NCBI RefSeq assembly: GCF_004011695.2
Contig: NC_082425.1
Coordinates: forward strand, 124,001-188,000
Direction: 5' to 3'
From: Ascochyta rabiei
Lineage: Eukaryota > Ascomycota > Dothideomycetes > Pleosporales > Didymellaceae
Length of the DNA stretch: 64,000 nt
Both the position numbers and the translations under genes were made by a program. Of the stretch, positions 215 to 55,425 are shown piece by piece. The notes under the pieces are model-generated. The model had not been told where the DNA came from, ran no database searches, and was given only the letters and a program-made list of their open reading frames with translations. Numbering within the stretch: the stretch's first letter is position 1; the number at the start of each line of letters is the position of its first letter.

Positions 215-469
215 TTACTTACGGTTGGACACGCTGACATCCTCAATTCTGCTAAGGCGCACCCCAAGCTTATCCTTGTTTGTTGGACTACTCACAACAG
301 GCTCTTCAATATACTCCTGACTGAGACAATCATCGCCTCGTGTGATGCAGTTCCTACATGCAGTGTCCTCGGGCGAAGCGAAGATGCAGCGAACCTTGCG
401 CCGCTTGCACTCCCAGCAGTTGCGCGTGCCCTTACGGACTTTTCGTCGCTTGGTGGACGGCTCTGACAT
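215..469 (-). pseudogene. Truncated Zn2Cys6 transcription factor (N-terminal fragment)
   Basis: The minus-strand frame starts at ATG 469-467 and gives 84 residues. A basic N-terminus (KRRKVRKGTR) leads into a binuclear zinc cluster with spacing C-x2-C-x6-C-x9-C-x2-C-x6-C (CWEC, KVRC, CRNC, DDC), the DNA-binding domain of fungal GAL4-type regulators. These proteins normally run to 500-900 residues with a downstream fungal_trans middle-homology region. Here the frame stops about 40 residues after the cluster, at the boundary with AT-rich sequence. A transposon insertion or deletion probably removed the rest, although an intron near the boundary leading to exons outside the window cannot be excluded. 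The last residues (SNRK) are probably read from the flanking repeat. Confidence 0.65.
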
Positions 470-680
470 TTGAGATCGGCGACAATTAGTTGGAGTAATG
501 ATAAAAACGTGAGAAAAATGGGAGATGGTAGAGATGCAAGTTAGGTGGTCCCTTCTTGTTCACTTTGTCCGAATTCGGCCGAAACGTGCTTACGTCTCTC
601 CTGATGACAGCGCCATTGAATCAACACAACGCAAAGGTCATGCTATACTTCAGTCACTACAGAACTCGCTTGTGCAAATC
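470..680. other. Short intergenic spacer
   Basis: This spacer lies between the start of the truncated regulator (minus strand) and the stop codon of the NmrA-like gene (minus strand). It should contain the 3' end of the NmrA-like transcript and any promoter of the regulator fragment. I see no coding sequence or repeat that I can support. Confidence 0.5.
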
Positions 681-1873
681 TCACGCCTTGCCATCAAAAG
701 CTGCTTTCCAAATCTTTTCCGCGGTCTCAGACTCGTGATCGGGCAGCAACTTGTTCCACTCATCGCTTGTGTCAATCGCGCCCTCCTTCGCGGCCAGCAA
801 AAGGCCAGTTATGAAGACCTTGCTTACCGCCTCAACATGATCTGGGTGGAGAGTTGGGTGGTGCAGTATGGGCACCCACGAGCTAGTCCAATCGCCAGCT
901 TCCAGACCCTCCGTGGAAATTCTGGTGACGTCGAATTCCGCACCTGCATAGCATTGATCAGCGCATGTTCTCACTACCCTTGAAAGTACTGAGGAATCGC
1001 AATCGACTTACCGCGTATGTTCTGTCCCAGCTCGATGAGCTGGTCAATTGAGAGGATTGACCCTCTTATGCCTCCAATGACAGGCCACACGCCTTCATAT
1101 TCCACGGCCTTTGTGACGACACTCGCCAGGTCTTTAACTGTGGTGAAACTCAGTACATCTCCCTCTCCACCCTCCCGGATGAGCATTCTCCTGTTCTGAA
1201 AGTCGAACGGCGTCTCGAGACTCTGAACATGCTTGGCCGTCATGTAGGGGCGGGAGAGATAGTCCGTGAACATGCCGGGCTGGAAGAGACTGTACTCGAG
1301 CACCTTATTGTCTTTGTTGATCTCCTGCAGATATTGACGAGTTTCGCCTTTCCAAGAGAACCAGGACATGTGGTCCAACTTGGTGCTGGCACCTGTTAGT
1401 CATGACGGAGGGCAGAGTAGGGTGATGGATAACAGAAGACTCACGAGAACCATTCACTAGGTGCAAAGCGCGTCACGCCGGCGCTGATCGAGGCGTCGAT
1501 CAACTTCTTCTGGGCAGCTGCTGCCTCCGCCTGGCCGAGGTGGGCAGCGAGGAAGGAGAGGACAGTGTGTGTGCCCTTGAACAGAGAGACCAGTTCGTCG
1601 GTGGAAGAGTAGTCTGTTTTGGCGTATGTGACGCCGGAAGCTGTGTCGCTGGCAGGAACATCCTGATAAAGTCAATTTGGCGGACCCTAGGCTCAGAGAC
1701 GCGTCGACCTTACCCTCCGAGTGAGTACCAAAATATTGTGCTTTTGAGTAGCTACAAGAGCATCGATGATCTCCCTTGCGACACCTAGGAATGTATGAGT
1801 ATCAAAGCAGGAGTGAATGCTGGATTTGAGGTATCGTACTACCGGCGCCACCTGCGATTGCGATCTTGACCAT
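681..1873 (-). CDS. NmrA-like / isoflavone-reductase-like NAD(P)-binding oxidoreductase, five exons
   Basis: The product is a 318-residue NAD(P)-binding Rossmann protein of the NmrA/isoflavone reductase-like (atypical SDR) group. These are cytosolic redox sensors or reductases; the substrate here is unknown. Proposed exons are 1873-1843, 1784-1714, 1662-1445, 1385-1012 and 943-681, with introns of 58, 50, 59 and 68 bp. The joined frame is open and ends at TGA 683-681. The N-terminus MVKIAIAGGAG carries the glycine-rich dinucleotide loop; TRFAPSEWFS and the YSLFQPGMFTDYLSRP segment match the family core. Intron 3 has two candidate acceptors (1393 and 1386); only the downstream one keeps the frame. 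The length is normal for the family (about 300-330). The paralogue group is not resolvable without a database. Confidence 0.82.
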
Positions 1874-2535
1874 GATCGATGATGTTACGAATACTCGCTG
1901 TATGCGAGGTTGAAGTATCGTATGATTTTGGAGAGGATACAGAGACTTGCTGTATGAAAGGAGGTAGTCGGTGACGATTGTGTTCTATATACCTGCTTCG
2001 ACCGAACCCTCGGTCAAACGACCACGTGCTCCAGCTCCACGATCAAACGGCATCTCGACCGAACCACACCGAAATGTCCAAGCCTAGCACCTTGCTTTCG
2101 ACCGAAACAGCAGGTATATTGTCGGACCGAAAAACACGCCGTCGAATTAATACGCACAGCCTGCGGTCGAGATTCTCGGCTGCTGATCTCATGGTGCCCA
2201 ACATCCAATACCACAGCAACAGCCATCAAGAAACCGGTATTTTTTGTTTGTGTGTTGATTGAGCTAGCCAAAGAAAAAGGTGAGGTTTACGGGAATGGTG
2301 ATGATTTGGTGTGTGTGTGACTAAACCTACTCGTGGCAAGAAATTGACGTATTTCGACGTGTTCTGGTGATGAGCTATTCAGTCTGCGAAGGGTGACGGG
2401 CAAAGAGCGAGGTACGTGTAATTACGGTGCCTGTAACGCTTCCATCAAGCACTATATATCCTCTACTATAGCAACTTGCTCTCGCGATGTTGCCTACTAC
2501 ATCCGACCAGCAATACACCGACACCAGAGTATCAA
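1874..2535. promoter_or_regulatory. Intergenic region with clustered ACCGA/TCGGT motifs
   Basis: This divergent intergenic region lies between the NmrA-like gene (minus) and the 583-aa gene (plus). It holds a perfect inverted repeat GACCGA-N4-TCGGTC at 2000-2015, followed within about 165 bp by further ACCGA/CGGTC motifs (near 2057, 2068, 2099, 2123 and 2162), and a CACGTG E-box at about 2022. CGG-containing inverted repeats are typical binding sites for Zn2Cys6 regulators. The binding role is inference; the clustering is visible. Confidence 0.35.
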
Positions 2536-4287
2536 ATGCACAACCCATCAACCCACGTCTGTCTGACAAACGCATCCAGACACCCTCTAGACCCACAGAA
2601 ATGGCTCCTCCTCCCTACCTACCGCCTCCGACTAACGCTCTTCTACACGTCGCGGTACCGCCGGCCCTCGCAAAACACCACCACGATCCGCAAATTCTTC
2701 GCGAGTCCAGAGGCTGCCAACGACGCGGCGCTGCAGCTCGCCAAGGACTGTCGCGGGGAGGGCGAGGCGATCATGCTGGTGGCGCGCAACGAAGGCGATG
2801 TCGATGCGCTGAATCGGTACGCCGTGGGGACGTGGGATGGTAAGACGGCAGTCGCGGGGAGGGTGCCGTGTAAGTGGAGTTTGATGTTGGATTTCGAGCG
2901 CGAGAGGCTGTATAGTCATGATAGCGGCGATGTGACTGCGTATGTGGAGGTTGTGCGGTCATGGGACACGGATGTTAGGAGGAGGGGTGAGAGGGTATCG
3001 TTGGAGGAGCTGCAGAGCTCGGGTCTGGAGGGCAAGCCGCCGCCGGGGTTGGGCGGCGCGGTGTTGTATCGGTTTGGGAAGTACGAGATGCGGGATATGC
3101 GGGCTTGGCGGCGGTTCGTGATTACGACTTCGTTGGACCGGAAGGAACGTGAGAAGCTGGAGGATCTGTCGGCTTTGTTTGCAGATGGTACGGTCGCGCA
3201 ACGCCCTATCCATGCGTGGTATGCCCAGAGTATATCTGACACGATCGCCGGACTGGAAGAGAACATGCAAATTCTCCAACTTGCCGCAGCACGACCACGA
3301 GACGCAAAAATACGCTTCGATTTCGATACAGCGCCTGTTGAGAGCCCCGCAGAGATTGGCTGGCGCCTTGCGAAGAAGTCTGTCGTCGCCAAGGACATTG
3401 CGATGTTTAACAGGAGAGTGGAAAAGTTGAAGTCAGAGGAGATGAGGCTTGATATGGAAGCTGAGAGCAGACCGATTTTGGAAAGGACTAAGACTTTTGA
3501 GGAGCCGAAATACGAGCTGGATTATGATTGTGAGTTTCTGGCAGAGAGCAGGCCGGCCCTGGCACGGTATAGAACGGATCAGCCGCCACCAACATCGGCC
3601 AGGATTGGCAAGCAGATGGATGAGGAGGCAGAAGGTGTTAACCTTCCTCTACCAGACGCTATGAGGGCAGAAGAGGATGACCTACCTCTACCAAACGCAA
3701 TGAGGGCAATCGCAGAGGAAGAGAAACTCTTACCTGGTCTCGGTGATGGTGCATCGGTATCACAGGTAGGATATCACAACGGCCTCATTCGAACAAGTCC
3801 CAACGAATGCAAGTGCAACGCTCACCGGTGGCGACGCGAGAGCTTCCCAAGTCACAAGCCCTTGCCCTCGTACGAATTCTCACCACCAGAACAGCTAGAG
3901 GCAAGGCTAGCTGCCCAGCTCGTCAACCCACCGAAATGGGCGCTGGATCCCACGCACATGCCTCGGAGCAGGCAGCCCTTCATTCCAGAGCGGGCGCTGT
4001 ATCCAGAGCCCACGACGCTGTGCGGGTACATACGGCGGCAGCTCGAGACGACAAGACCAGCGCCGCGTGAAGCGTATGTCCGGTTTGGTGTCATGGACGA
4101 AAGGGACTGCGAGACGAGATGGGGTTCGGAATGGCGGCTGCAGTGTCAGAACGATCAGATGGAGTGGGATCACGAGCGCAATGTGAGGAAGCGGTGGAAG
4201 AGGCCTAGCAAGCCGCGGCTGAATGATTATCCAGTGAGCGAGTTGGACGGGTATGAGGGGGGTTTGCTTGAACACGAGATGTCTTGA
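2536..4287 (+). CDS. Hypothetical protein, 583 aa, unrecognised
   Basis: The longest frame begins upstream at a TTG (2476), so I chose the first in-frame ATG at 2536. A start further inside (the ATG in EAIMLVARN, about residue 80) or a spliced 5' end is possible. The frame is open to TGA at 4285-4287. The protein is rich in charged residues. The N-terminal half (residues about 50-280) looks globular (RKFFASPEAANDAA, YRFGKYEMRDMRAWRRF). A middle stretch at about 310-410 is acidic with a short internal duplication (PLPDAMRAEED / PLPNAMRAIAEE). The C-terminus is basic and Trp-rich. No signal peptide or membrane segment is evident. I do not recognise a family and assign no function. GC content and codon use resemble the neighbouring genes. 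Confidence 0.7.
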   Translation: MHNPSTHVCLTNASRHPLDPQKWLLLPTYRLRLTLFYTSRYRRPSQNTTTIRKFFASPEAANDAALQLAKDCRGEGEAIMLVARNEGDVDALNRYAVGTWDGKTAVAGRVPCKWSLMLDFERERLYSHDSGDVTAYVEVVRSWDTDVRRRGERVSLEELQSSGLEGKPPPGLGGAVLYRFGKYEMRDMRAWRRFVITTSLDRKEREKLEDLSALFADGTVAQRPIHAWYAQSISDTIAGLEENMQILQLAAARPRDAKIRFDFDTAPVESPAEIGWRLAKKSVVAKDIAMFNRRVEKLKSEEMRLDMEAESRPILERTKTFEEPKYELDYDCEFLAESRPALARYRTDQPPPTSARIGKQMDEEAEGVNLPLPDAMRAEEDDLPLPNAMRAIAEEEKLLPGLGDGASVSQVGYHNGLIRTSPNECKCNAHRWRRESFPSHKPLPSYEFSPPEQLEARLAAQLVNPPKWALDPTHMPRSRQPFIPERALYPEPTTLCGYIRRQLETTRPAPREAYVRFGVMDERDCETRWGSEWRLQCQNDQMEWDHERNVRKRWKRPSKPRLNDYPVSELDGYEGGLLEHEMS

Positions 4288-4668: not shown

Positions 4669-6513
4669 ATGTTCAGCGTACCGGGCTGGAACGTCTCGGC
4701 GCCCATTGCGGCTCAGGTCGAGCAGCCGAAGCCACAGGACCCGAACAAGCTCGGCAAGAAGGCGCAGAAGCGGAAGCGGGCGCAGGACGAGCAGGTCAAC
4801 ACCGAGGACCTGGGGAAGCTGTGGGGGGAGGCCGAGACGCAGAAGGCGCAGAAGGTGCAGAAGGCGCAGGCACCCAGGGCTGAGGCGCCGAAGAGCCAAG
4901 CGCCGAAGAGCCAAGCGCCGAAGGACTCGGATCTGCCGGCGCGGGCGCTCGAGCGAGCAGCGCAGGACGAGGCAGAGGCGGCAGAGGCGGCAGCTGAGGG
5001 AGACAAGAAGAGCAAGAAGCGGAAGCGCGGGCCCCGAAAGAACGCCGCCATGAAGGAGGCTGCCGCTGCAAAGGCCGCCGAGGCTGGCGTCACAGAGGGC
5101 GATGCTGTCCCGGCAGGACCCAAGGCCGCCGACCCAGACTCCAAGCGCTCGAAGAAGAAGCAGAAGAAGGAGCACAAGGCGGACAGGGCGGACAAGGCGG
5201 ACAGGGCGGACAAGGCGGACAAGGCGGACAAGGCGGACAAGCCAGAGACAGCCACGACGTCCAGCAAGCCCGTCGAGACGCCCGCCCTCATGGACCCCGT
5301 GGCGCTGATCCCCGAGCCCGCCGGCCTCACGCCCCTCCAGAAGTCGATGCGCAGCAAGCTCGCCAGCGCCCGCTTCCGCCACCTGAACGAATCGCTCTAC
5401 ACCAAGCCCTCGGCCGACTCGCTCTCGCTCTTCGCCGAAGACCCGTCCATGTTTGAGGACTACCACCGCGGCTTCGCGCAGCAAGTCCAAGTGTGGCCGC
5501 AGAACCCCGTCGACGACTACGTCGAGTCCATCCTGAAGCGCGGCTCCATCAAGATCGCCAAAGACCCGTGGCGCGCCCAGATGCGCGAGCAGAAGAAAAA
5601 GGGCCCCGTCGTCGCCGCCCAAGACACCTCCGACGCCGACCGCCCCGTCATCCCGCGCGGCAACAACAAACCACTCCCGCGAGTCCACGGCGGCAAATGC
5701 CTCATCGCCGACCTGGGCTGCGGCGTAGCCTCGCTCTCCTACCGCCTGCAACCACACCTCTCCTCCCTCAACATCTCGATCCAATCCTTCGACCTTTCGC
5801 AGCCCTCCGGACCGAGCAAATCCCTCGTAACCGTCGCCGACATCTCTGCCCTCCCGCTGAAGGAAAACAGCACCGACATCGCCATCTTCTGCCTCGCACT
5901 CATGGGCACAAATTGGCTCGACTTCATCGACGAGGCGTACCGCATTCTACGGTGGAAGGGCGAGCTCTGGATCGCCGAGATCAAGTCCCGCTTCGGCCGC
6001 GTCTCCAACAAGAAGGCCAAGCCCATCCCCATAAACTCCATCGGCAGCCTGAACAAGGGCGCCAAACCACCCAAGAAAAGCAAGACACCCAAAGACAAGA
6101 AGAAAGACGACGTCGAAGGCATTGAAGACAGCGCCGACGAAGCTGAACTCGCACAAGCCGTCGACGGCGCCAGCGGCCCCGAAGGCACAGACGTCAGCTC
6201 CTTCATCTCGGTGCTGCAATCCCGGGGCTTCATCCTCGACGCCCTGCCCGAGCGGCCGGGCGACGCCATCGACCTCAGCAACAAGATGTTCGTCAAACTA
6301 CAGTTCGTCAAAGGCGCACAGCCCACCAAGGGCAAGAACGCCGGCACAGAGGGGACGAGCAGCGGCGCGCGAGGGAGTTTCAAAACGAGCAGTGCGCTGA
6401 GAATGGGGATCAAGGGGAAGAAATTCAATGCTGTTAGCAGTAAAGAGGAGGAGCAGGGAGGAGCAGAGAAGGACAGGGAGGTCCTAAAGCCGTGTTTGTA
6501 CAAGATTAGGTAG
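4669..6513 (+). CDS. RRP8: RRP8, nucleolar 25S rRNA methyltransferase
   Basis: The product is the ribosomal RNA-processing protein 8 family, an S-adenosylmethionine-dependent nucleolar enzyme that in yeast makes m1A645 of 25S rRNA and supports early pre-rRNA cleavage. It is a single exon of 614 residues from ATG 4669 to TAG 6513. Residues 1-215 are a low-complexity Lys/Ala/Asp-rich tail suited to nucleolar targeting. The Methyltransf_8 domain follows: LTPLQKSMRSKLASARFRHLNE at about 219-240 is the conserved entry, LIADLGCGVASLSYRL at about 345 is the SAM-binding motif I, VTVADISALPL and AIFCLALMGTNWLDFI are the next strands, and WIAEIKSRF at about 440 follows. A Lys-rich insertion (about 450-500) separates this from the last strands (FILDALPERPGDAIDLSNKMFVKL). 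The yeast protein is shorter; the tail repeats account for much of the extra length. Confidence 0.93.
   Translation: MFSVPGWNVSAPIAAQVEQPKPQDPNKLGKKAQKRKRAQDEQVNTEDLGKLWGEAETQKAQKVQKAQAPRAEAPKSQAPKSQAPKDSDLPARALERAAQDEAEAAEAAAEGDKKSKKRKRGPRKNAAMKEAAAAKAAEAGVTEGDAVPAGPKAADPDSKRSKKKQKKEHKADRADKADRADKADKADKADKPETATTSSKPVETPALMDPVALIPEPAGLTPLQKSMRSKLASARFRHLNESLYTKPSADSLSLFAEDPSMFEDYHRGFAQQVQVWPQNPVDDYVESILKRGSIKIAKDPWRAQMREQKKKGPVVAAQDTSDADRPVIPRGNNKPLPRVHGGKCLIADLGCGVASLSYRLQPHLSSLNISIQSFDLSQPSGPSKSLVTVADISALPLKENSTDIAIFCLALMGTNWLDFIDEAYRILRWKGELWIAEIKSRFGRVSNKKAKPIPINSIGSLNKGAKPPKKSKTPKDKKKDDVEGIEDSADEAELAQAVDGASGPEGTDVSSFISVLQSRGFILDALPERPGDAIDLSNKMFVKLQFVKGAQPTKGKNAGTEGTSSGARGSFKTSSALRMGIKGKKFNAVSSKEEEQGGAEKDREVLKPCLYKIR
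5179..5241 (+). repeat. 9-bp coding minisatellite in RRP8
   Basis: Seven exact-length tandem units of GCGGACAAG/GCGGACAGG are translated as repeated ADK/ADR triplets inside the disordered N-terminal tail. Copy-number change keeps the frame. Confidence 0.9.
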
Positions 6514-13722: not shown

Positions 13723-14138
13723 GAACTACAACACAATCTAGAAGTATAGTAAAGAGCATGAAGACGCTAGCGCTGTAAAGCACAGCGCTCTACTGTATAG
13801 AGAGCGTCTCATCAGCTTCTATTATAAAGATAGCTTTATTACAGCAGACCTCTCTATAGTAGCTTTCGTTTGCTATTACAATTTTAATTTTATTTGAACA
13901 TTAGAAGAAACTACTAAAATTTCCTATTTAAAGCTCTCTATAGGCAGATTTTAACAGGTATAAGAATTACCATTACTAAGCCTCTAAAAAAATTCATCTT
14001 AGTATAGCTTAAAATAACCTTATTTAGCACTATAAAGTATAGCATAGTCTATAACACTATTTAGAATTTACATCTATCTCTTTTTACATATTTATAATAA
14101 TAAAGAATAATAGAAGTCTCTTATAGGCGTAGGTAATC
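13723..14138. other. Boundary between gene-bearing DNA and the AT-rich island
   Basis: Composition changes abruptly just after the GNAT stop codon. A nested hairpin (GACGCT .. AGCGCTGT-5-ACAGCGCT .. AGCGTC) lies at about 13763-13808. The remainder is AT-rich sequence without a readable frame and without an assignable repeat. Confidence 0.5.
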
Positions 14139-14308: not shown

Positions 14309-14944
14309 GAGGGCTTAGAGGGCTATTAGGGTTTATTACAGTGGTAAAAGGGTAGAGGTTAGGTAGGGGTAGGGTAAATCACGTAATGTACCCCTACCCT
14401 ACTCTACCCCTACCTACGCTAATTCTATGCTAAGAGGGTAGGGGTAGGGTAGGGTCTATATAGGGTATAGGTAGGGGTAGAGTAGAGTCTATATAGGGTA
14501 GGGGTAGAGGTAGGGTAGGGTCTACATAGGGTACAGGTAGGGGTAGGGTAGGGTCCACATGGGGTAGGGGTAGGGGTTAGGTAGGGGTTAGGTAGGGGTT
14601 GGGTAGGGTAGGTGTTAGTGTCTAACTCTTTAACTATAGCAGTTGTTGCAAAACCTTGTACTACAGAATTATAGAGCAAAACAAGCGCTTTTAAAGGGTC
14701 TATATACTGTGAGATTCTAATTAAAACTAGTAGAGTTACAGCAGTTGTTGTGTAAATCCTAGGTTGTTACAATGTAGGCCTACGTAACAACTGCTCTAGC
14801 TCTACTAGTTTCCCTTGGAATCTTACATAATATAGACTGTTTAAAAGTACTTGTTTTGCTCTACATTTTACTTATACAATATTTCTTAATAGCTACTTTA
14901 CTATAAGAGTTACAGGTAGGGGTAGAAGTAGGGAAGAGGTAGGC

Positions 14945-15431
14945 TGTTGAAGTCGTACTTTAGTTAAAGACCGTAAGCACTGATTCTATTGGTTCTCAGG
15001 GATAAGTACAGTTACTGGATCGGTAAGGGTTATCAACTAAGCAAAGCTTGTGAAGATAGGGTGCAATGAATAGTACAGAGTAGACTGTCTAGTTCAAGAG
15101 CAGGTTAAGATTCTAAAGACAAACTTAATTAATAAGGTTAAACACGAACTATAAGGGTTATGTTCCTATTAACTATATACTAATAAGATACATTACTTAT
15201 TAATAAGTAACTAGAGTTAGTCTAATAAAATATATAAGGGTGCTTGTGGACAAGCATATTGTACCATGCTTGTTAACAAGCAGTTACGTGTGTTATGTTT
15301 GTTAACAAGCAGTTACGTGACATCCCTATCTGTTCTGTCCTTCTCTACTGTTCGTTCCTTTAGAGCGGAGTCAGGGGTCTTGGTTGGCTGGTACTTATGT
15401 TTGTGCCGTGCCCTAGCACAGGATTGTAACA
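14945..15431 (-). repeat. Family A 3' LTR
   Basis: This 487-bp copy, TGTTGAAGTCG .. GATTGTAACA, is the LTR downstream of pol in the element's own orientation. It lies directly upstream of the plus-strand accessory frame at 15532, so it is positioned to supply an antisense promoter. Confidence 0.93.
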
Positions 15432-15531
15432 CTATCCCCTCTTCCCCTTTAGTTTGTCCTTAAACTATATAATTGTCTTTTAGAGTTTTATATAATCTGC
15501 AATCTCTGTATCTAGTAACCTGTAAGTTAAG

Positions 15532-15966
15532 ATGTCCTTATACGCCTGCAACATCCGTCTTATATTAGAAATCTGTTAAGCTAATACACCTGCTAAAGTC
15601 CCTTACAATTGTTGTTTCTTTAGCAGCTATAAGTGCTTTATTATACCAGGTAGTCTAAAAGGTCTAAAGTGTGCTAAGTGTATAAAGGCTGGTAAGCCAT
15701 ATATAAACATGTCTTAGGCGTTGTTAGATAAGACTTGTAAGGAGTATAAGAAAAAGGTAGAAGAAGACAAGTTACTCCTTGTAACTGTTATTGTGCAATT
15801 ATTGCATAATAAGAAAATCCTAAAACAGGCAAATAAACGCGTGCGGCAAAAGGCGCTGTGTTTGGCAAATAGAATGGTTAAGGCTGGCGAGTTAGACCTG
15901 GCCGAGGAAGTCAATCCTAACTGTCCTGCAGCGTCCATTGGCATGTGTGCCTCGCCAGCTACCTAG
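15532..15966 (+). pseudogene. Accessory reading frame antisense to pol in gypsy family A
   Basis: The plus-strand frame from ATG 15532 to TAG 15964-15966 (145 codons) lies between the 3' LTR and the end of pol and is opposite to gag-pol. Two in-frame stops (TAA 15577, TAG 15714) are of the RIP type. The first half has paired cysteines (YNCC, YKC, LKCAKC) resembling a small zinc cluster; the second half is a charged, helix-prone, coiled-coil-like segment (CKEYKKKVEEDKLL .. QANKRVRQKALCLANRMVKAGELDLAEEV). The 3' end overlaps the minus-strand pol stop (15961-15959) tail-to-tail by 8 bp. Composition and charge pattern argue for a real former protein; its function is unknown. Confidence 0.6.
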
Positions 15967-18900
15967 GGCGCTCTTGGTTTAATTGAAGAGTCTGTTGCGA
16001 ATCATGGTACTTGCGTACTAATCGGCGGCAACTTGTAAGGTGCGCAGGTGGTTCCTATGTGTTTTCTAAGTCTAGGTATCCTAACTATTTAACTAGGTAC
16101 CTTTATTAATTGCCATTTCCCTTATATGTTACTATTTTTTTAACTTCCTATTTATCTTCGCCATTGGCTTAATAATGGAAGTTCTCCTGGATAGGCGTTC
16201 TAGGGTTGGCTGGTTCTAATAGAGATATGTGGAACACTAGGTAGATCTTTGCATCCTTTAGCAGATTAAGTCTATAGTTAACTAGGCTTATCTGCTTAGA
16301 AATAAAAAAGGGTCTAACTTTGACGTGGTCTAGTTTTTTTGTTAGTCTTTGTGTGCGAAGGTTTTTTGTAAGGAGATAGACTTTATCCCCCTCTTTCAGC
16401 TAAGGTGCTGTTTTTCTTTTCTGGTTAACATATGAGATTGCTCGTTCTTAAGCCTTACTAATGTTTTCTAGTGCCTTTTTATGCACTTCCTTCAGTCTTA
16501 CTACTAAGGATATTGCTGATTCGGTCTGAATTAGCGTGTCCAGACTCCTGGTAAAGAGATTTAGGTGCATCCCATAATTCAGAAAGAACAGTAATTCTCC
16601 TGTTACTTCTAACAATTTGTTGTTGTATGCAATCTGCGCCATAGGTAACAGCAAAACCTAGTTGTCTTGCTGCTGGTTGCTGTAAATCCGTAGATATGTT
16701 TCTATGGTCTGATTCGTTCTTTTAGTCTGTCTATCCGTCTGCGGATAATAGGCTGTAGAAAGCTTCTTCTTGGTACTAATAGCTGCCAAGAGCGTGGTCC
16801 AGTAATTTGACGTGAAGAGCTTGTCTTAATTACTAATAATTAATTTAGGTATGCTATAATGCCTTATGTGTTAATCTAGGAACACTTATATAAGCTGCTC
16901 TGCAGTATAACTATATTAAAACAGTATTATTTTAGCGTACTTTGTAAATCTGTTAACTATAACGAAGATCGAATCGTAGTTGTATCTAGTGACAGGGTCT
17001 CTTGAGGTAGGCAGCTGAGTGACGAAATCCATCGTGATGTTCGTCCATGGTGCCGTTGGTGGCTCCATTGCCTGCATTTCTCTGTATTTTGCGTGTGTGC
17101 TGTGTTTATTTTGCTGGCAGTTAACACAATTTTTAATGTATTTAGTGACCTTGTCCTTTATATTGCTAAACTTATAGTGTTGCTTAATAAGTTCTATTAT
17201 GCGTGTAATTCTAGGGTGTCTGTGTAGTAGGTTATTGTGGTAATCAGCTATAATTTTGTCCTGAAGTTCCTCTAGTACGTCTGATGTAATATGTTAGTTA
17301 ATTTCAATTTGCATCATGTTGTTGAGCTGTTGCGATAGTCCTAGCGATCCATCGTTGTTGATTCCTAACACTGCGAACTAGTTGATTGTTTTTTCTCCAG
17401 CGAGGTTGTGTTGTCGGCTCAGTGCGTCAGCTCTACTATTGTCCTTGCCTGGAGTGTATATTATCCTGAATTTGTATTATCTAAGCATCTCAGACTAACG
17501 TACTTGGCGTCTATTTAAGACTTTACTTATGGTAAAGTATACTAGGTTCTTGTGGTTAGTATAGATAGTGAGTTCTAAGCAACTTTCTGCGTATAGTTGC
17601 TAATGTTCCAGGGCTGATACAATTACAAGTAATTCTTTGTTGTGCACATTGTAGCGTTCTTCTGGTCCTAAGAACTTGCGTGAGTAGTATGCGATAGGGT
17701 GCTATAGTCTATCTTTTTCTTGCGTGATACATGCGCCTAATGCGAGATCTAAGGCGTTAGTCTCTATGCGTATTAGTTTGCTGCTGCAAAACGTGATTAA
17801 TGTAGGAGGTGCAATACAGGCTTGTTTAAGTGCCTTAAACGCATTGTCTTGTTCTTGTCCCCACTTAAATGGTGTATCCTTCCGCGTGAGCTTCGTCAGC
17901 AGGATTGCAATCTTAGAGTAGTCCTTAATGAAGCGTCAGTTAAAGTTAACAAATCCTAAGAATTCCTAGATCTGTTTAACCGTCTTTAGCGTCTGCCAGG
18001 TCCTAACTACTTCCACCTTTGTTGGACTGATCTTGACTCCGTGTCGTCCTACAATGTACCCTAGGAATTCAACTTCCTCTTTATGCTATTTGCACTTTTT
18101 AGGTTTAAGTTGTAGGTCTGCCTGCTTTAGGCATTCTAGCACTTCTGTAACATGTTTTATGTGCTCTTCTAGTGTCTTGGAGTACACTAGGATGTCGTCT
18201 AGGTACGCTACCACAGTTCTGTTAAGGTGTGCTCTCAGGACGTTATTAATCAACTCCTAGCACGTTGCTGGTGCGTTTGTTAGACTAAACGGCATAACTA
18301 GGTACTTATAGAGTCCGTATTGTGTCCTAAATGCTGTTTTCTATTCTTCTTCTTTCTTTATGCGTATAAGGTTGTACACGCCTTGTAGATCTAACGCTGT
18401 AAAGTACTAAGCTCCTGCTAGCCGGTCCTGCAACTCTGTGATGTTCGGGAGCGGGTAGCGGTTCTTAATAGTGATTTTATTAAGCTTCCTGAAGTTGATG
18501 CAAGGTTGTAGCTTGCTATCCTTCTTAGGAACGAACATGATTAGGTACCCTGCAGGTAATTCTAATCTTCTAATAAATCCCTTCTTAAGGTTCTCCTTAA
18601 TGTACTTATAAAGTACTTTAAGTTCCTTTTCTAATAACTGGTATAGTGGCCTAAAAGTCAGTGTCTTTCCTTCCTAGAGCTTGATCTTGTGATCCTAGGG
18701 TTTATGCTTAGGCAGGGCTTTTGCTGTAAGCTCTTCTCTGAACATCTCTGCGTACTGTTGGTAAACGTCAGGGATGACAGGAGGTGCACTCTTCTCCTCC
18801 TTAACTCTCGCTTTGTGATCCGTGGGGCTCTCAGTATCTGCAGAGTTGACCGCTCTATCTTGGCGCGTCTTATGTGTTAAAGAGATATTGTTAATCTTCT

Positions 18901-19330
18901 TCTTATCTACCAGCTGCTGCGTACGCTGCGTAGGCGTAGATGCATTAGTGCTACATTTGCATCCTTCTAACAAAAGTCTTTCTTGTGCCTAGTCTATCTT
19001 TAGGTTATACTTTTGTAACTAGGGAAGTCCTAGTATAATGTTGTGCGTGGCCTTTGCAAAGACGTCTAGGTTTATTTCCTTGTAGTGCCCCTGTATCTGT
19101 AGGGGTGCCGCTATTACTTCGAACATGATCAGCGGTTCGTCTGGCATTAATTCTCTGTTGGCTACTTAGAGCGAGTAAGCGTGTTTCTTGCGATATAATC
19201 TAAGTCCAGCTTAGAACACTATTGTCTGGGATATGTAGTTCGCTTGTGCTCCTAAGTCTAAGAGTGCTAAAAAGACTACTCTATTTAGTTTAATAGGTAG
19301 TTTAATAAGGTGATTAGTCCTAATACTATT
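15959..19330 (-). pseudogene. Gypsy family A pol (protease, RT, RNase H, integrase, chromodomain), broken
   Basis: The region reads 3' to 5' on the plus strand. The protease motif (LDLGAQANYISQ) lies at about 19225-19265; reverse transcriptase with YLDDILVYS at about 18180-18210; RNase H ending in GKDNSRADALSRQH at about 17400-17460; the integrase zinc finger (HRHPRITR .. CVNCQQNK) at about 17110-17230; the integrase core (ITMDFVTQLPTS, YNYDSIFVIVNRFTKYAKI) at about 16930-17040; and a chromodomain-like tail (RYLVK-stop-LGYLDLENT-stop-EPPAHL) at about 16030-16130. Many TAG/TAA codons interrupt the frame where Trp or Gln is expected. Some long sub-frames remain, for example 68 codons at 16448-16654. 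It is not functional. Confidence 0.9.
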
Positions 19331-20449
19331 AATAGATCGATCCCTAGGGCTTGTAGGCGCTAGCCTAAAAAAGTCCCCTCTTTACTAAACCCTTCGTATT
19401 CCTTAGTAGTGCGGTGTTTCTTGCAGTCTGCATTAAGACAGTTCTGCCAGTGTGCATTGTAGCAACTTCTGTTAACTACTAGCTGTATTTGTATTGTGGC
19501 CTGTGGGTTATCTGTACCAGGAAAGTGTGCTTTCTAGCACTTATTAATAAGATAAAGTTCACACAGGTCATTGTGACACTGGTACCATTAGTTGCGACAG
19601 AGGCCTTGTTGTGCCAGGAACCATCCTGCACTAAGCTTCTTGTTGTGGTAGATTATACATCTGTCTTTGGTGTATGCTGTCTATGTAAGGTTTCTATGTT
19701 TTAGGTTTTAGTAATCTAGGATGTACTGTAGTTGTGGGCTAATTAGTAGTAGTTCTTCTTTCTGCTTCCGCATACGTTCTAGGCTGAGCTGTGTTTCTTA
19801 CTTGCACTAAAGCTGGTCTTTAGCTTCTTCCAGGTTGTTAGCGAACTTTTCGCTGTCGTTGATTTCTTTCTTAAACTGGTAGACGAGTTCTTAAAGTTCT
19901 GGTGTTATTTCTGCTATTTCAGGTCCTTTAATAGGGCTGACGAGTTCTTAACACATTCAGCAGTAGGCTTCTTTGTCTTCTTGCTTCTGGCGTTGCTAAG
20001 TTAAGCGTTCTTATTTGCGCGTTGCTTTGGCGATCTAGCTAAGCGTCCGCCCCGAAGTGTCTAGCAGGTTGTCTATTTTTTGCTGGTAGTCCTCTGTCTC
20101 TTTATAGGCTATAATGTTGTTAAGCCTGTCGTCCTTCTTTGCGCTTTTAGTTTTTGGTTCTACAACTATTAACTCTCTACTATTAGGGGTGTAGTAACGC
20201 GTTCCTTGCTTGTAGAAGGGTCTATGGTATTTCTTGCCTATTTAGGCTCTGCTTCTGGTCCTTCTGTATTCTACCGCGTGATATTGCTGATCGTTGTTAG
20301 AGTAATACTCTATTTCTTTGCCTGTCTGGGCGTTCTGGTAGGGTGTTGCTACACAAATTGGAGGTACAATACAGTTGTCATCGTCCTCTAAACCAGACTC
20401 TGGGTCTTCCAGCAGTTGTCTAATATTATTAGTAAGAATTTCCTATTTA

Positions 20450-21432
20450 CTGGCTTCTGTGTTGTTGTAATCACAGGTAAGTACATTTAACTGGCGGTGA
20501 ACCTTATTTATCCAGCAGTCCCTGGCAAAGTGGCCTGGTTTGCCACAGTTATAGCAGTCCTTACTGCCTCCTAATTACTTACCCCCTCTAGGCTTCTCGT
20601 TCCATTGCTTAGGTGGTCCTTTGTTGAGGTTTAAGAGGTCTATTGCTTCAGGTCTGTAGTATCCACTCTGCGTGTTGCTGTGAATACAGCAACTAGTGTT
20701 TAGCTAGTTACAGCCTCCTTGTTGTCCTTAGTTTAGGTTGTTGCGCCACTGGTTCCTTAGTGGCGGTTGGTTGGGAGCAATGACGGTAGTGCGTGCTCTA
20801 GGGTTGTCTTAAAGTTCCTGCTAGAGTTTGTAGAGTCATACGTTGATGTTAATAGCAGTATTAATAAGCTTGTTAAGGGTTTCTGTGCTTGCGCTGGTGC
20901 GCATAAGTTCTTCCTTAACCTTAGGCTTTAATCCCTGTTGGAACATAGTAGTCAGAGCAGTGTTGTCCCAGTCAGTGTTAGCAGCGAGCTGCTGAAATTC
21001 TGCGGCGTAGTTGGCGGCTGACTTGTCTTGCTTAATCTTCTAAATGTTACAACAGGCAATGTGTGGTTTATTAGAGACTCTAAAGATTAGCTTAATCTTT
21101 TCTTTAAATAGGTTAAAGTCTCTTATCTATACATCTACGTTGTCTAAAGCTTTGCCAGCTTAGTACTGCTGTACAAAGGGCTTAATCTAGGTAAACGCTT
21201 TACTACGCATATAGCTAGCTGCAAGGACTACTTATTTAATCTTAGGGACCTTCTTGCCTTAGAAGGTGAAGAAGAGGTCCTATTAAATAAGCTAGTTGTT
21301 AAGCTTGCTACAGTCTCTGTAGTAAAGGTTGGGTTTGTTAACGTTCATGCCTGAAGTGTAGACTGATGGGTCTACGTCGACGTCTATGTTGGAGCTGCTA
21401 GGGGTAGCACGGGATCCTGTAGAGGTACTTAT
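20450..21432 (-). pseudogene. Gypsy family A gag, broken, start codon mutated
   Basis: The capsid-like N-terminus reads from 21432, where the expected ATG is ATA (consistent with RIP of the opposite strand), then STSTGSRATPSSSN. Downstream the capsid region (KPNLYYGDCSKLNNWL .. NYAAEFQQLAANTDWD) is clear. The nucleocapsid carries a CCHC zinc knuckle, DCYNCGKPGHFARDC, at about 20515-20560. Several TAG/TAA stops interrupt it. Confidence 0.85.
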
Positions 21433-21449
21433 CTTAGGGGTGTTCAAAA

Positions 21450-21936
21450 TGTTAAAGTTGTACTTTAGTTAAAGACTGTAAGCACTAATTCTATTAGTTC
21501 TTAGGGATAAGTACAGTTACTAGATTAGTAAGGGTTATTAACTAAGCAAAGCTTGTAAAGATAGGGTGTAATAAATAGTACAGAGTAGACTGTCTAGTTC
21601 AAGAGCAGGTTAAGATTCTAAAGACAAACTTAATTAATAAGGTTAAACATAAACTATAAGGGTTATGTTCCTATTAACTATATACTAATAAGATACATTA
21701 CTTATTAATAAGCAACTAGAGTTAGTCTAATAAAATACATAAGGGTGCTTGTAGACAAGCATATCGTACCATGCTTGTTAACAAGCAGTTACGTGTGTCA
21801 TGTTCGTTAACAAGCAGTCACGTGACAACCCTATCTGTTCTGTCCTTCTCCACTGTTTGTTCCTTTAGAGCGGAGTCAGGGGTCTTGGTTGGCTGGTACT
21901 TATGTTTGTGCCGTGCCCTAGCACAGGATCGTAACA
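21450..21936 (-). repeat. Family A 5' LTR
   Basis: This 487-bp copy is the LTR upstream of gag in the element's own orientation. Compared with the other LTR it shows extra G-to-A and C-to-T changes, as expected for RIP. I could not identify a convincing tRNA primer-binding site in the sequence next to it. Confidence 0.93.
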
Positions 21937-22551
21937 TAGGCCTAAGTAGGGCCTAAAGGTGTTAGCGTGTAACTCTTTAACTATAGCAGTTATCGCAATA
22001 CCTTGTACTACAGAAATGTAGAGCGAAACAAGCGCTTTTAAACAGTCCATATTCTGTAAGATTATAAGGGAAACTAGTAGAGCTAGAGCAGTTATTACGT
22101 AGGCCTACATTGTAACAACCTAGGACTTACACAACAACTGCTATAACTCTACCAGTTTTAATTAGAATCTTACAGTATATAGACCCTTTAAAAGCGCTTG
22201 TTTTATTCTATAATTCTGTAGTACAAAGTATTGCAATAACTGCTATAGTTAAAGAGTTACACACTAACACCTTTAGGCCCTACTTAGGCCTACCTCTTCC
22301 CTACAGACTCTACCCTAAACCCTACCCTACCCTACCTCTACCCCTAGTCCGTGCGGACTGTACCCTACCCCTACCCTATACTAGAGGTACCCCTACCCTA
22401 CCTCTACCTAACATCTATGCAGACTCTACCCTACCTCTACCCTATATAGACCCTACCCCTACCCTACCTCTACCCCTAGTCCGTGCAGACTGTACCTAAC
22501 CCCTACCTAACCCTAGGGTACCCCCTACTCTTTTGCCAGCGTAGGGTTTAA

Positions 22552-49673: not shown

Positions 49674-50280
49674 ATTAATAAGATAAAATTTACATAGGTT
49701 ATTATAACACTAGTACTATTAACTACAACAGAGGCTTTATTATACTAGAAACCATCCTATACTAAGCTTCTAATTATAGTAGATTATATATTTGTTCTTA
49801 GTATATACTATCTATATAAGGTTTCTATATTTTAGGTTTTAGTAGTCTAGGATATAATTAATTATAGGCTAATTATTAGTAGTACTTCTTTCTACTTCTA
49901 TATACGTTCTAGGCTAAGCTATATTTCTTACTTACACTAAAGCTAGTCTTTAGCTTCTTCTAGGTTATTTGTAAACTATTTACTATTATTACTTTCTTTT
50001 CTAAACTAGTAAACAAGCTGTTAGGGTTCTAGTATTATTTCTGTAATTTAGGTACTCCTATAGGACAAACAAGTTCTTAATATATTTAGTAATAGGCTTC
50101 TTTAATATTAAACTTCTAGAATTATTAAGCTATACGTTCTTGTTTGCGTATTAGTAGAGCGCTAATTTAGTTAAACCCTTACTCTAAGGTGTCTAGTAGG
50201 TTGTCTATCTTTTACTAGTTGTTATTAGAGTAGTATTCTGTTCCTTTGCCTGTCTAGGCGTCTTAGTAGGGTGTTGCTAT
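49674..50280 (-). mobile_element. Gypsy family A copy 2, segment 2
   Basis: This segment resumes the alignment with copy 1 at 19543 and follows it, with internal deletions, to 20352. It ends in GTTGCTAT, the target of family E element E2. Confidence 0.88.
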
Positions 50281-51144
50281 TAAGCTAGCAAAAGGGTAGA
50301 GGGTACTCTAGGGTTAGGTAGGGGTTGGGTACAGTCTGCACAGACTAGGGGTAGAGGTAGAGTAGAGGTAGGGTCTATATAGGGTAGGGGTAGGGTAGAG
50401 TCTATACAGATATTAGGTAGGGGTAGAGTAGAGGTACCTCTAGCGTAGGGTAGGGGTAGGGTACAGTCTGTACGGACTAGAGGTAGGGGTAGAGTAGGGT
50501 AGGGTAGGGTAGGGTAGGGTCTAAAGGGAAGAGGTAGGCCTAAGTAGGGCCTGTAGGTGTCAGCGTATAACTTTTTAACTAAAGCAGTTATTGTAAAACT
50601 TTGTACTACAGAAATATAGAGCAAAGCAAGCGCTTTTAAACAGTCCATATTTTTGTGAGATTTCGATTAAAACTAGTAGAGTTGCAGTAGTTGTTGTGTA
50701 AGTCCTAGGTTGTTATAATGTAGGCCTACGTAAGAACTGCTCTAGCTCTACTAGTGTTAATTAGAATCTTACAGTGTATAGACTGTTTAAAAGCGCTTAT
50801 TTCTCTCTACATTTCTGTAGTACAATGTTTTGCAACAACTGCTTTAGTTAAAAAGTTAGACGCTGACACCTACCCTACCTAACCCCTACCTAACCCCTAC
50901 CTAACCCCTACCTATACCCTATGTAGACCCTACTCTACCCCTACCTCTACCCTATATAGACTCTACTCTACCCCTACCCCTACCCTATATAGACTCTACT
51001 CTACCCCTACCTATACCCTATGTAGACACTACTCTACCCCTACCCTCTTAGTATAGTTTTAGCGTAGGTAGAGGTAGAGTAGGGTAGAGGTACATTACGT
51101 AATGTACCCTACTCCTACCTAACCTCTACCCCTTTACCACTATA
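50281..51144. mobile_element. Family E element, short form (E2), 864 bp
   Basis: This is a clean single copy. The left end is TAAGCTAGCAAAAGGGTAG (A-type); the right end, read on the minus strand, is TATAGTGGTAAAGGGGTAG (B-type). The 8-bp target duplication GTTGCTAT is exact (50273-50280 and 51145-51152), and the empty site GTTGCTAC is present at 20345-20352 in gypsy family A copy 1. Structure: about 265 bp of GGGTAGG-type array, a ~320-bp palindromic core (about 50550-50870), then about 270 bp of CCCTACC-type array. It has no coding capacity. The duplication size fits hAT-like, P or Merlin transposases, but the responsible enzyme is not in the window. Confidence 0.9.
50496..50520 (+). other. 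Potential G-quadruplex motif in E2 arm
   Basis: Five successive GGG runs separated by TA (GGGTA repeats) lie on the plus strand in the left arm of E2, next to the core palindrome. The pattern fits the usual G3N1-7 rule. Formation of a quadruplex is inference. Confidence 0.6.
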
Positions 51145-52488
51145 GTTGCTATACAAATTAGAGGTATAATATAGTTATTATTATCCTCTAGACTAGACTT
51201 TAGGTCTTCTAGCAGTTATTCTATGTTATTATTAAGAATTTCCTATTTACTAGTATCTATATTATTATAATTATAGGTATGTATATTTAACTAGCAGTAA
51301 ACCTTATTTATCTAGCAGTTCCTAGTAAAGTAGCCTAGTTTGCTACAATTGTAGCAGTCCCTACTGTCTCTGTGTTAGTTACCCCCCTTAGACTTCTTAT
51401 TCTATTACTTTAGTAGTCCCTTATTAAGGTTTAAGAGGTCTATTACTTTAGGTCTATAGTATCTACTCTAAGTGTTGCTGTAGGGATAACAACTAGTATT
51501 TAGCTAATTTTAACCTCCTTACTATCTGTAATTTAAGTTATTACGCTACTAGTTCCTTAGTAGCAGTCTATTAGTAGCAATAACAGTAGTATAGGCTCTA
51601 GGGTTATCTTAAAGTTATTACTAAAGTTTGTAGAGTTATATATTAATATTAATAGTAGTATTAATAAGCTTATTAAGGGTTTCTATGCTTGCGCTAGTGT
51701 GTATAAGTTCTTCCTTAACCTTAGGCTTTAATCCTTGTTATAACATAGTAATTAGAGTAGTATTATCCTAGTTAGTGTTAGCAGTAAGCTGCTAAAACTC
51801 TGCAGCGTAGTTAGCAGCTAACTTGTCCTATCTAATCTTCTAAATATTACATCAAGGAATGTGTAGTTTATTAAAGACTCTAAAGATTAGCCTAATCTTT
51901 TCTTTAAATAGGTTAAAGTCTTTTATCTATTTATCTTTATTGTCTAGAGCCTTACTAGCTTAGTACTGCTGTATAAAGGGCTTAATCTAGGTAAACACTT
52001 TACTACGCATATAGCTAGCTGCAAGAACTACTTATTTAGCCTTAGAAACCTTCTTACTATAGAAGGTAAAGAAGAGGTCCTACTGTATAAGCTAGTTATT
52101 AAGCTTACTATAATCTCTGTAGTAAAGGTTAGGCTTATTAACGTTTATAGTGCTAGTAGTAATAGTTACATCTATATTAATATTGCTAGATATAGAGTTA
52201 CTAGAGGTGGTACAGGACCTAATAGTACTTATCTTAGGAGTGTTTAAGATGTTAAAGTTATACTTTAGTTAAAGACTATAAGCAAAAATTCTATTAGTTC
52301 TTAGAGATAGGTACTAGTAGATTAGTTAGGGTTATTAACTAAGCAAAGCTTATAAAGATAGGGTGCACTATATAGTACAGAGTAGACTGTCTAGTTTAAG
52401 CACAGGTTAAGATTCTAGAGACAAACTTAATTAATAAGGTTAAACACAAACTATAAGGGTTATGTTCCTACTTAACTATATACTTTAA
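51145..52488 (-). mobile_element. Gypsy family A copy 2, segment 3 (gag and part of 5' LTR)
   Basis: This segment aligns with 20345-21680 of copy 1: zinc knuckle region near 51320-51365, the capsid region, then the LTR start at about 52249 (TGTTAAAGTTATAC). Only about 240 bp of the 487-bp LTR remain before the similarity ends. It is more strongly altered by RIP than copy 1. Confidence 0.85.
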
Positions 52489-53295
52489 TAATAGTAGTAG
52501 TAATATAGGCTAATTAGTAATAAGAATTCTCTAATTGCACTAATTACTAATTACACTAATTACTAATTACACTAATTACTAATTATACTAATTACTAATT
52601 GTACTAATTAAGCTAAGCCTAATTATATTACATAATTCTTAGCTTCTTACTAAGTATTAACGCTGTTATGTTTGCTTACGCTAAGCCTAATAACTTATTA
52701 TACTTACTATGCCCTATACACTATAACTAGCTTATATTCTTTCTATACTCTATAGATTATAACAGCTAGTAGCTCTACTTTAGTAGTTAATATAGTACCT
52801 ATGTCTTACTTATTAGCTCTCTTTGTAATAAATCTATAAAATAGTCTTATAGCGTATCCTTATAAGCTTTTGCAATCTAGGGTATTATCTATAAATAAAG
52901 TATTACTTGTAGTTTACAGTCCTTTAACGTTAGCTCCTTCTAGTTTTAGGGCTTATTATTTAGTATCTTAGAGGTATAGTAGTACTTAATCCGCAGCATT
53001 ATAGTGCTTAGGTCCTAGATTTACTAGAAAGTAAGCTAGTTATAAGGTAGTAAAAGTAGTATCTAGCCTTATAGTAACTGTAGTAAAGAGCAACAACCTA
53101 ATCTTACGTTAATATTTATTAATTTCTGCTAGCGCTGCTAGACCCTTTCTTAGCTAAAGTTCCATTACTACTATAGGAGTATTGTGTTAAATATTCTACC
53201 TATTAGCTAAGTATCTAATCTTATCTAAGTATGCAGCTTATAATAGTTAGATCTTTTAATCTACTCTTTCTTAGATAATTTCTATACTAAGGAAC
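52489..53295. pseudogene. Unassigned AT-rich sequence with a degraded reading frame; target of E3
   Basis: After the broken LTR comes a short tandem array (about 52531-52610) and then AT-rich DNA. On the minus strand between about 52800 and 53290 a frame can be followed between TAG/TAA codons (e.g. QKLININVRLGCCSLLQLL, KELTLKDCKLQVILYL), suggesting a former protein of unknown family. The sequence resumes at 55426 after the family E insertion (TAAGGAAC duplication). Confidence 0.4.
52531..52610 (+). repeat. 16-bp tandem repeat ACTAATTACTAATTAC
   Basis: About five units with C/T and A/G variants. The unit is itself made of two ACTAATT-like halves. Confidence 0.8.
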
Positions 53296-55417
53296 TACGG
53301 TAGTAAAAGGGTAGAGGTTAGGTAGGGGTAGAGTACATCACGTAATGTACCCCTACCCTACTCTACCTCTACCTACGCTAATTCTATACTAAGAGGGTAG
53401 AGGTAGAGTAGAGTCTATATAGGGTATAGGTAGGGGTAGAGTAGGGTCTATATAGGGTATAGGTAGAAGTAGGGTAAGGTCTACATAGAGTAGAGGTAGA
53501 GGTAGGGTAGGGTCTACATAGGGTATAGGTAGGGGTTAGGTAGGGGTTAGGTAGGGGTTAGGTAGGGGTTAGGTAGAGTAGGTGTTAGCGTCTAACTCTT
53601 TACCTAAAGTAGTTATTACAAAACCTTATCATACAAAATTGTAGAGTAAGATAAGTGCTTTTAAATGGTCTATATACTGTAAGATTCTAATTAGAACTAG
53701 TAGAGCTAGAGCAGTTGTTACGTAGGCCTACGTAGTAACAACCTAGGATTTACACAACAACTACTATAACTCTACTAGGTTTAATTAGAATCTTACAGTA
53801 TATAGACTGTTTAAAAGCGCTTGTTTTACTCTACATTTTTATAGTACAAAGTTTAATAATAATTGCTTTAGTTAAAGAGTTACACACTAACACCTACAGG
53901 CTCTACTTAGGCGTACCTCTTCCCTACAGACCCTACCCTAAACTCTACCCTACCCTACCTCTACCCCTAGTCCATGCAGACTGTACCCTACCTCTACCCC
54001 ACGCTAGAGGTACCCCTACCCCACACTAGAGGTACCCCTACTCTACCCCTACCTAACATCTGTGTAGAATCTACCCTACCCCTACCCTATGTAGACCCTA
54101 CCCCTACGCTAGCAAAATGGTAGAGGGTACCTTAGGGTTAGGTAGGGGTTAGGTACAGTCTGCACGGACTAGGGGTAGAGGTAGGGTAGAGGTAGGGTCT
54201 ATATAGGGTAGGGGTAGGGTAGAGTCTGTATAGATGTTAGGTAGAGGTAGGGTAGAGGTACCTCTAGCGTAGGGTAGGGGTAGGGTATAGTCTGCATGGA
54301 CTAGGGGTAGAGGTAGAGTAGGGTAGGGTTTAGGGTAGGGTCTGTAGGGAAGAGGTAGGCCTAAGTAGGGCCTGTAGGTGTTAGCGTCTAACTCTTTAAC
54401 TAAAGCAGTTATTGCAAAACTTTGTACTACAGAAATGTAGAGTAAAACAATTACTCTTAAACAGTCTATATACTATAAGATTCTAATTAAAACTAGTATA
54501 GCTAGAGTAGTTGTTATATAGGCCTACACTGTAATAACCTAGAACGTATACAATAACTACTGTAACTCTACTAGTTTTAATTAGATTCTTACAGAATATA
54601 GACTGTTTAAAGGCGCTTGCTTTGCTCTATATTTCTGTAGTACAAATTTTTATAATAACTGCTTTAGTTAAAGAGTTACACGCCAACACCTACAGGCCCT
54701 ACTTAGGCCTACCTCTTCCCTACCTCTACCCCTACCTGTAACTCTTACAGTAAAGCAGCTATTAAGAATTTTTGTACTACAAAGATATAGAACAAGGAAA
54801 GCGCTTTTAAACAGTCCACATTTTGTGAGATTCTAATTAAAACTAGTAGAGTTACAGCAGTTGTTGTGTAAGTCCTAGGTTATTACAGTATAGGCCTACG
54901 TAACAACTGCTCTAACTCTACTAGTTTCAATTAGAATCTTACAGTATATAGACTGTTTAAAAGCGCTTGTTTTGCTCTATATTTCTATTATACAAAGTTT
55001 TGTAATGACTGCTTTAGTTAAAGAGTTAGACGCTAACACCTACCCTACCTAAACCCTACCTAACCCCTACCTAACCCCTACCTAACCCCTACCTGTACCC
55101 CATGTAGACCCTACCCTACCTCTACCCCTACCCTATGTAGACCCTACTCTACCCCTACCTCTACCCTATATAGACCCTACTCTACCCCTACCTATACCCT
55201 ATATAGACCCTACTCTACCTCTACCCTCTTAGTATAGAATTAGCGTAGGTAGGGGTAGGGTAGGGTAGGGGTACATTACGTGATGTACCCTACCCCTACC
55301 TAACCCCTACCCTTTTGCCACCGTACCTACCCCTACCCTACCTCTACCCCTAGTCCGTACGGACCGTACCTAATCCCTACCTAACCCTAGGGTACTCTCT
55401 ACCCTTTTACTAGCGTA
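53296..55417. mobile_element. Family E element, short form (E3), interrupted by E4
   Basis: The left end is TACGGTAGTAAAAGGGTAG (B-type); the right end, on the minus strand, is TACGCTAGTAAAAGGGTAG (A-type). The exact 8-bp duplication TAAGGAAC is at 53288-53295 and 55418-55425. Without E4 and its duplication the element is 893 bp, close to E2 (864 bp), with one core at about 53580-53900. Orientation is inverted relative to E2 and E4. Confidence 0.88.
54105..55325. mobile_element. Family E element, long form (E4), nested in E3
   Basis: The left end is TACGCTAGCAAAATGGTAG (A-type); the right end, on the minus strand, is TACGGTGGCAAAAGGGTAG (B-type). The 8-bp duplication CCTACCCC is at 54097-54104 and 55326-55333. 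Because the target is itself a CCCTACC array, the duplication alone is weaker evidence than for E2 and E3, but the ends match exactly. The length of 1221 bp and the order A-end, standard core (about 54370-54690), junction, variant core (about 54740-55040), B-end mirror E1 (1210 bp), so the long form is a defined subfamily. Confidence 0.85.
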
Positions 55418-55425
55418 TAAGGAAC

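Follow-up and report, generated by a model that had tools for sequence, protein, structure and literature searches.

Four insertions in a 64-kb stretch of the Ascochyta rabiei genome, here called the window, combine G-rich foldback arms with ends of two types and 8-bp target duplications (E1 to E4, Table 1), and the question they raise is which system moved them. The preliminary description had proposed that they form a family of non-autonomous DNA transposons in which each copy has two unlike ends and is flanked by an 8-bp duplication. This proposal is supported by comparisons across the genome, which also allow an assignment to the hAT superfamily: elements of 6.6 kb that share these ends and arms code for a hAT transposase. 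E1 to E4 carry no genes and are very probably non-autonomous hAT copies that spread by cut-and-paste in trans, through the transposase of the 6.6-kb hAT element.

The insertions themselves are sharply bounded. A Hamming scan of the window with the two 19-bp ends as queries (≤4 mismatches) gave a total of eight ends, a single A and a single B end per insertion, in agreement with the four bounded insertions first described, and the 8-bp duplications, exact at E2, E3 and E4 and matching in seven of eight bases at E1, were found again. The A-type end is TACGCTGGCAAAAGGGTAG and the B-type end is TACGGTGGCAAAAGGGTAG; these are short imperfect terminal inverted repeats, unlike each other. An LTR retrotransposon with a 5-bp duplication of its own (TAGGC at 14940-14944 and 21937-21941) splits E1. 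By subtraction of the retrotransposon and this duplication, E1 measures 1,210 bp, a length that also occurs in two other genomic pairs and, after a nested copy and one duplication are likewise subtracted, in one element of locus L005. E1 starts near a border at about window position 14000, where the G+C content drops sharply from gene-like sequence to AT-rich, RIP-like repeats. An Rrp8-like protein encoded at window 4669-6513 matches proteins of Didymella, Epicoccum and Boeremia (Didymellaceae) at 74-80% among the matches listed; a Curvularia kusanoi protein matches at 79%, and the top match among those listed reaches 81%.

Table 1. Features of the window (positions in the 64-kb stretch; L032 is a 6.6-kb element of the same genome)
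Feature	Position	Strand	Remarks
E1 foldback element	14337..22543	-	B end left, A end right
E1 duplication	14329-14336 and 22544-22551		GGGTTTAT and GGGTTTAA; 7/8 bases
LTR retrotransposon inside E1	14945..21936		direct repeats at both ends
Paralogous empty site of E2	20293..20652	+	target 20345-20352 (GTTGCTAC), in the retrotransposon interrupting E1
E2 single-core foldback element	50281..51144	+	A end left
E2 duplication	50273-50280 and 51145-51152		GTTGCTAT; exact
E2 A arm	50281..50519	+	G-rich subterminal repeats; 84% to first 240 bp of L032
E2 palindromic core	50559..50867		without match to L032
E2 B arm	50937..51144	+	86% to last 208 bp of L032; alignment ends at 51140
E3 foldback element	53296..55417	-	B end left, A end right; A arm split by E4
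E3 duplication	53288-53295 and 55418-55425		TAAGGAAC; exact
E4 double-core foldback element	54105..55325	+	inserted in the array of E3
E4 duplication	54097-54104 and 55326-55333		CCTACCCC; exact

A paralogous empty site of E2 had been placed at 20345, and it was recovered there: when the E2 flanks were fused with a single copy of the duplication between them, a junction-spanning match to the window site of Table 1 ran without gaps over 360 nt at 79.7% identity. A second empty site lies elsewhere in the genome (L041), where the joined flanks match over 601 nt at 88.5% with one gap. Because the LTR retrotransposon of E1 carries the first of these sites, E2 evidently sits in a related repeat.

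The same ends recur throughout the genome (40.9 Mb, 23 contigs). The A-type pattern, at ≤3 mismatches and with B-type ends included, gave 239 matches against 6 for the reversed pattern, and a degenerate B-type pattern gave 84 against 0; the search with the 19-bp ends yielded the further copies, with the same ends and 8-bp duplications, that a transposon family predicts. Among 80 exact A ends listed, 52 face one of the 84 listed B ends within 15 kb (33 within 3 kb), and the other 28 have no listed B end facing them over that distance. Of the 33 short pairs, 25 are flanked by an 8-bp duplication with at most one mismatch (exact in 22), as are 13 of the 14 long pairs tested (exact in 12), so that eight short pairs and one long pair are without a matching duplication; mismatched left and right flanks, taken as a control, gave such a duplication in 10 of 2,550 combinations, which include one void E2 row (wrong right end 51136, true end 51144). 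The long pairs comprise 10 whole loci, of which L046 and L049 are not among the 52, and four flank pairs, so that the duplication test covers 12 of the 19 pairings longer than 3 kb. In sum, 38 of the 47 tested pairs outside the window and four of four inside it carry a duplication at this threshold, in rows that are partly non-independent: the pairs L035/L036 and C8:1884553 / C8:1949921 are mirrored duplicates, GGTCTAGG is common to two pairs, and one B end is paired with two A ends.

The two types of end also appear to act together. In sequences longer than 400 bases, a duplication accompanies 23 of 26 A-B pairs and none of five A-A or B-B pairs, and all 23 pairs with a duplication have one A and one B end. 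This suggests that one end of each type is needed per element, in a test made weak by the five A-A or B-B pairs all being cross-pairings of neighbouring or nested elements and by the choice of loci through A ends or A-B pairs. Read with the A end at the left, 41 duplications have a weak consensus (T at position 2 in 16, T at position 3 in 24, A at position 7 in 14); the target preference given for the Hermes transposon is nTnnnnAn (PMC10368747).

These duplications also bear on the view that recombination or hairpin-driven events, in place of transposition, were the main route by which the foldback elements increased in number. Large palindromes do recombine, and both L035/L036 and the pair at C8:1884553 / C8:1949921 lie in apparent inverted segmental duplications with mirrored target duplications. 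Nonetheless, such a history is highly improbable for the bulk of the copies, given that the 8-bp duplications differ among most of those tested, that the empty site of E2 is precise, and that nested insertions have duplications of their own. The L035/L036 locus itself (C2:1909122-1927022) holds two hAT copies of equal length with identical, mirrored duplications and is probably an inverted segmental duplication.

The probable source of a transposase lies in the same genome, in elements mostly of 6.6 kb that have the ends, arms and 8-bp duplications of E1 to E4. Ten of the 20 long loci fetched gave an A-B pair with a duplication (eight of 6.6-6.7 kb, two longer) and the remaining 10 gave none. 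Nine non-redundant long copies were used for further analysis, and one of them, L032, aligns with each of the remaining eight in long pieces at about 91-94% identity. In the 6.6-kb copies the transposase gene points to the A end and occupies about 410-3,060 counted from it. The transposase is matched in nine of nine long copies by a Boeremia exigua protein (P0121, OPT61_g2929; tblastn, 42-59% identity) and by a hAT protein of Pyrenophora tritici-repentis that stands for 28 member sequences (P0122; 37-51%), and P0121 in turn matches Hermes at 3.8e-9. P0121 also carries a pogo-type DDE_1 domain, and on that account its gene model is probably a fusion of hAT and pogo-type transposases.

Might E1 to E4 have been moved by a different superfamily that also makes 8-bp duplications (P, Merlin, Zisupton), with ends shared with hAT genes by accident? 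Duplications of this length are not decisive by themselves, and their consensus is weak. The common arms and ends nevertheless largely refute such a reading and make it most improbable: each of the nine long copies has the hAT transposase matched by P0121 enclosed by these two ends, and a six-frame Pfam scan of one of them, L032, at E ≤ 0.05 picked up no transposase domain besides this one.

The preliminary description had called for a search for an autonomous element with the same ends, and the expectation holds in part: 6.6-kb hAT relatives with these ends, arms and duplications exist, but all nine copies are broken, with longest stop-free stretches of at most 114 codons. The hAT dimerisation domain (PF05699) has 44 matches in the genome, 20 of them about 0.5-0.7 kb inside an A-type end, and each of these 20 carries at least three stops, so that no intact transposase of this family was found among them. 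The TpA/ApT ratio is 1.93-2.01 in the long copies against 1.07 in the first 14 kb of the window, and by this measure the long copies look RIP-damaged; RIP indices (2.30/0.72 in short cores, 1.88/0.67 in long bodies) do not separate the two classes. A second hAT, of a different family (L011, at C1:1389237-1389476, with an uninterrupted 655-aa frame), was considered as a source and rejected, as such ends are absent in 3.2 kb there and its identity to P0121 is 20%.

Besides the transposase, the long copies carry a histone-H3-like gene (PF00125 at 4.7e-8; PDB H3 at 5e-13), which was found by tblastn in all nine, near the B end, on the strand opposite the transposase and reading towards the B end. 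Over its main ~60 residues it is 40-47% identical to the intact H3 of the host in nine of nine copies, and its reading is broken by intron-like gaps where the host H3 exon has none. L032 further contains a 238-bp tandem repeat of 2.4 copies (5028-5609) between the transposase and the histone-like gene, and at 3870-4211, opposite in strand to the transposase, a stop-free frame of 101-114 aa that is seen in all nine long copies. Apart from the intact host H3 gene at C1:1630952 (L051), a histone gene lies at C4:959085-959584 (L052, L057), which we take, from its motifs, to be a CENP-A-like host gene.

The short elements are tied to the long ones through their arms. When E1 to E4 and eight short elements from elsewhere in the genome were aligned to L032, 150-255 bp proved common at the A end (92 bp in E3, where the E4 insertion cuts the arm) and 40-214 bp at the B end, with identities of 70-95%; the lower bound at the B end comes from L063, with only 40 bp common as a long alignment. 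E1 to E4 keep roughly 240 and 208 bp of the ends of the long element around an unrelated core, and the arms of the short elements and of the hAT element have subterminal repeats with a 33-bp period in common. The fetched short members span 0.5 to about 1.25 kb.

At the core of the short elements stands a palindrome, about 300 bp long, in one or two copies. The palindromic nature of the core, already pointed out in the preliminary description, is borne out by self-complementarity: the 10 sequences scored, whole elements or parts of them, reached 299-455, and 30 shuffled versions of each did not exceed 40. Core and ends occur together: among the matches listed, for which 40 of 156 candidates were scored and the rows grouped by eye into 39 loci, all 39 core loci have at least one end, with both ends listed in 24 and one side in 13. 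At the two core loci without a listed end, both ends are present once the sequence is examined, and of these the locus on C11 has an exact 8-bp duplication and that on C6 is comparable over four flanking bases only. Two origins for the core were ruled out, namely a separate element inserted into an arm, as the two flanks of the core are inverted and not direct, and derivation from the 6.6-kb element, as the core is without a match in L032.

The G-rich arrays had also been likened to degenerate telomere repeat, and they might on that basis be telomere-derived or satellite DNA without defined borders. The arms are indeed TAGGG-rich and hold a few TTAGGG units (on both strands, 4 against 100 GGGTAG in E1 to E4; 2 against 211 in eight other short elements), and exact A-type ends are more frequent than expected near contig ends, with 28 of 79 within 150 kb where 12.3 are expected on the 19 contigs of known length. 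However, 25 of these 79 ends fall at a distance of 50-150 kb from the end of the contig and the last 50 kb are not enriched (3 seen, 4.1 expected), TTAGGG is absent from the outermost 300 bp on either side of the nine long copies, and the arrays, far from occurring only as unbounded satellite DNA, are bounded by defined ends plus duplications, which refutes this account and renders it extremely unlikely. A telomere origin of the arms was ruled out by their 33-bp subterminal repeats, the rarity of TTAGGG and the lack of enrichment in the last 50 kb; the likeness is superficial.

If E1 to E4 are non-autonomous hAT copies, as we consider very probable, the transposase would bind the 33-bp G-rich repeats of the arms, pair one A end with one B end, cut, and then insert with an 8-bp stagger. 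The palindromic core would be filler that was acquired once and sometimes doubled, and the copies may now be mostly immobile, in view of the RIP-like damage in the transposase genes. The difference between A and B ends and the arrays would together form the recognition system of the transposase. Such a transposase probably requires in cis what the short and long elements have in common, arms of about 240 and 208 bp, and through them the asymmetry of the ends and the role of the G-rich repeats become testable. Of the 13 canonical G4 motifs of the window, 12 fall in the arms of E1 to E4, four elements that occupy 4.2 of its 64 kb. It is very unlikely that the G-rich arms also act as quadruplex-forming or chromatin-positioning DNA and that the element's H3-like protein packages or marks its ends; if this were true, a transposon would bring a variant nucleosome component together with the DNA that it acts on, and the foldback elements would parasitize that chromatin system.

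An unnamed foldback family is hereby tied to its probable source, a hAT lineage with a histone H3-like gene, and the range of this H3-carrying lineage now includes a Didymellaceae-like genome, where non-autonomous copies form a large family. The architecture had been thought to be without a described parallel, a claim that has to be given up: H3-carrying hAT elements have been published in related fungi of the Dothideomycetes, and maize Ds2 follows the same design. The E1 to E4 family is new, but the kind of element is familiar. Long inverted tandem-repeat arms around a variable middle, as found here, also characterize the Galileo/FB foldback elements of Drosophila, which, unlike E1 to E4, belong to the P superfamily and not to hAT.

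The published elements nearest to the long copies carry a like cargo. A 5.6-kb hAT of Pyrenophora tritici-repentis is described with a dimerisation domain, a histone H3-like gene (H3L) and a central ORF, and it resembles the present element in having a hAT transposase with dimerisation domain and an H3-like gene between its ends (PMC3538342). P0122 is presumably the H3L element's own transposase. Set against that published description, the element here is longer (6.6 kb), RIP-broken in nine of nine copies, and accompanied by a foldback derivative family, whereas the 2.3-kb derivative described in P. tritici-repentis retains H3L and a chimeric ORF (PMC3538342). The 9.5-kb hAT of Pseudocercospora fijiensis likewise has an 8-bp duplication, 20-bp inverted ends, an H3-like cargo and RIP-inactivated copies, and histone-H3-carrying hAT elements are given for Pseudocercospora, Cercospora and Sphaerulina (PMC6710886). 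The P. fijiensis cargo is described as intron-less, in contrast to the intron-like gaps seen here, and DUF659 but not the dimerisation domain is reported for that element, whereas PF05699 is found here; the terms 'MITE' and 'non-autonomous' occur 0 times in the available text (PMC6710886). Repeat R25 of Stagonospora nodorum is similar to the long copies as a RIP-degraded repeat with histone H3 similarity, and differs in that the available account gives only weak similarity to DNA transposons (PMC3017866). Among the matches listed from the open-licence literature, a foldback derivative of an H3-carrying hAT was not found.

For the short elements, the nearest design is that of maize Ds2, a hAT element of the Ac/Ds system in which about 200 bp of each Ac end surround filler DNA (PMC3260210). 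The likeness extends to the length of autonomous end retained, the unrelated filler, the 8-bp duplications and the subterminal repeats, and the Ac transposase binds repeats of this kind (PMC3260210). In Hermes, whose ends are unlike each other, the BED domains bind subterminal repeats at the left end alone (PMC10368747). E1 to E4 depart from Ds2 in their arms, which are G-rich with a 33-bp period where Ds2 has AAACGG hexamers (PMC3260210), and in their filler, which is one conserved palindrome, single or double.
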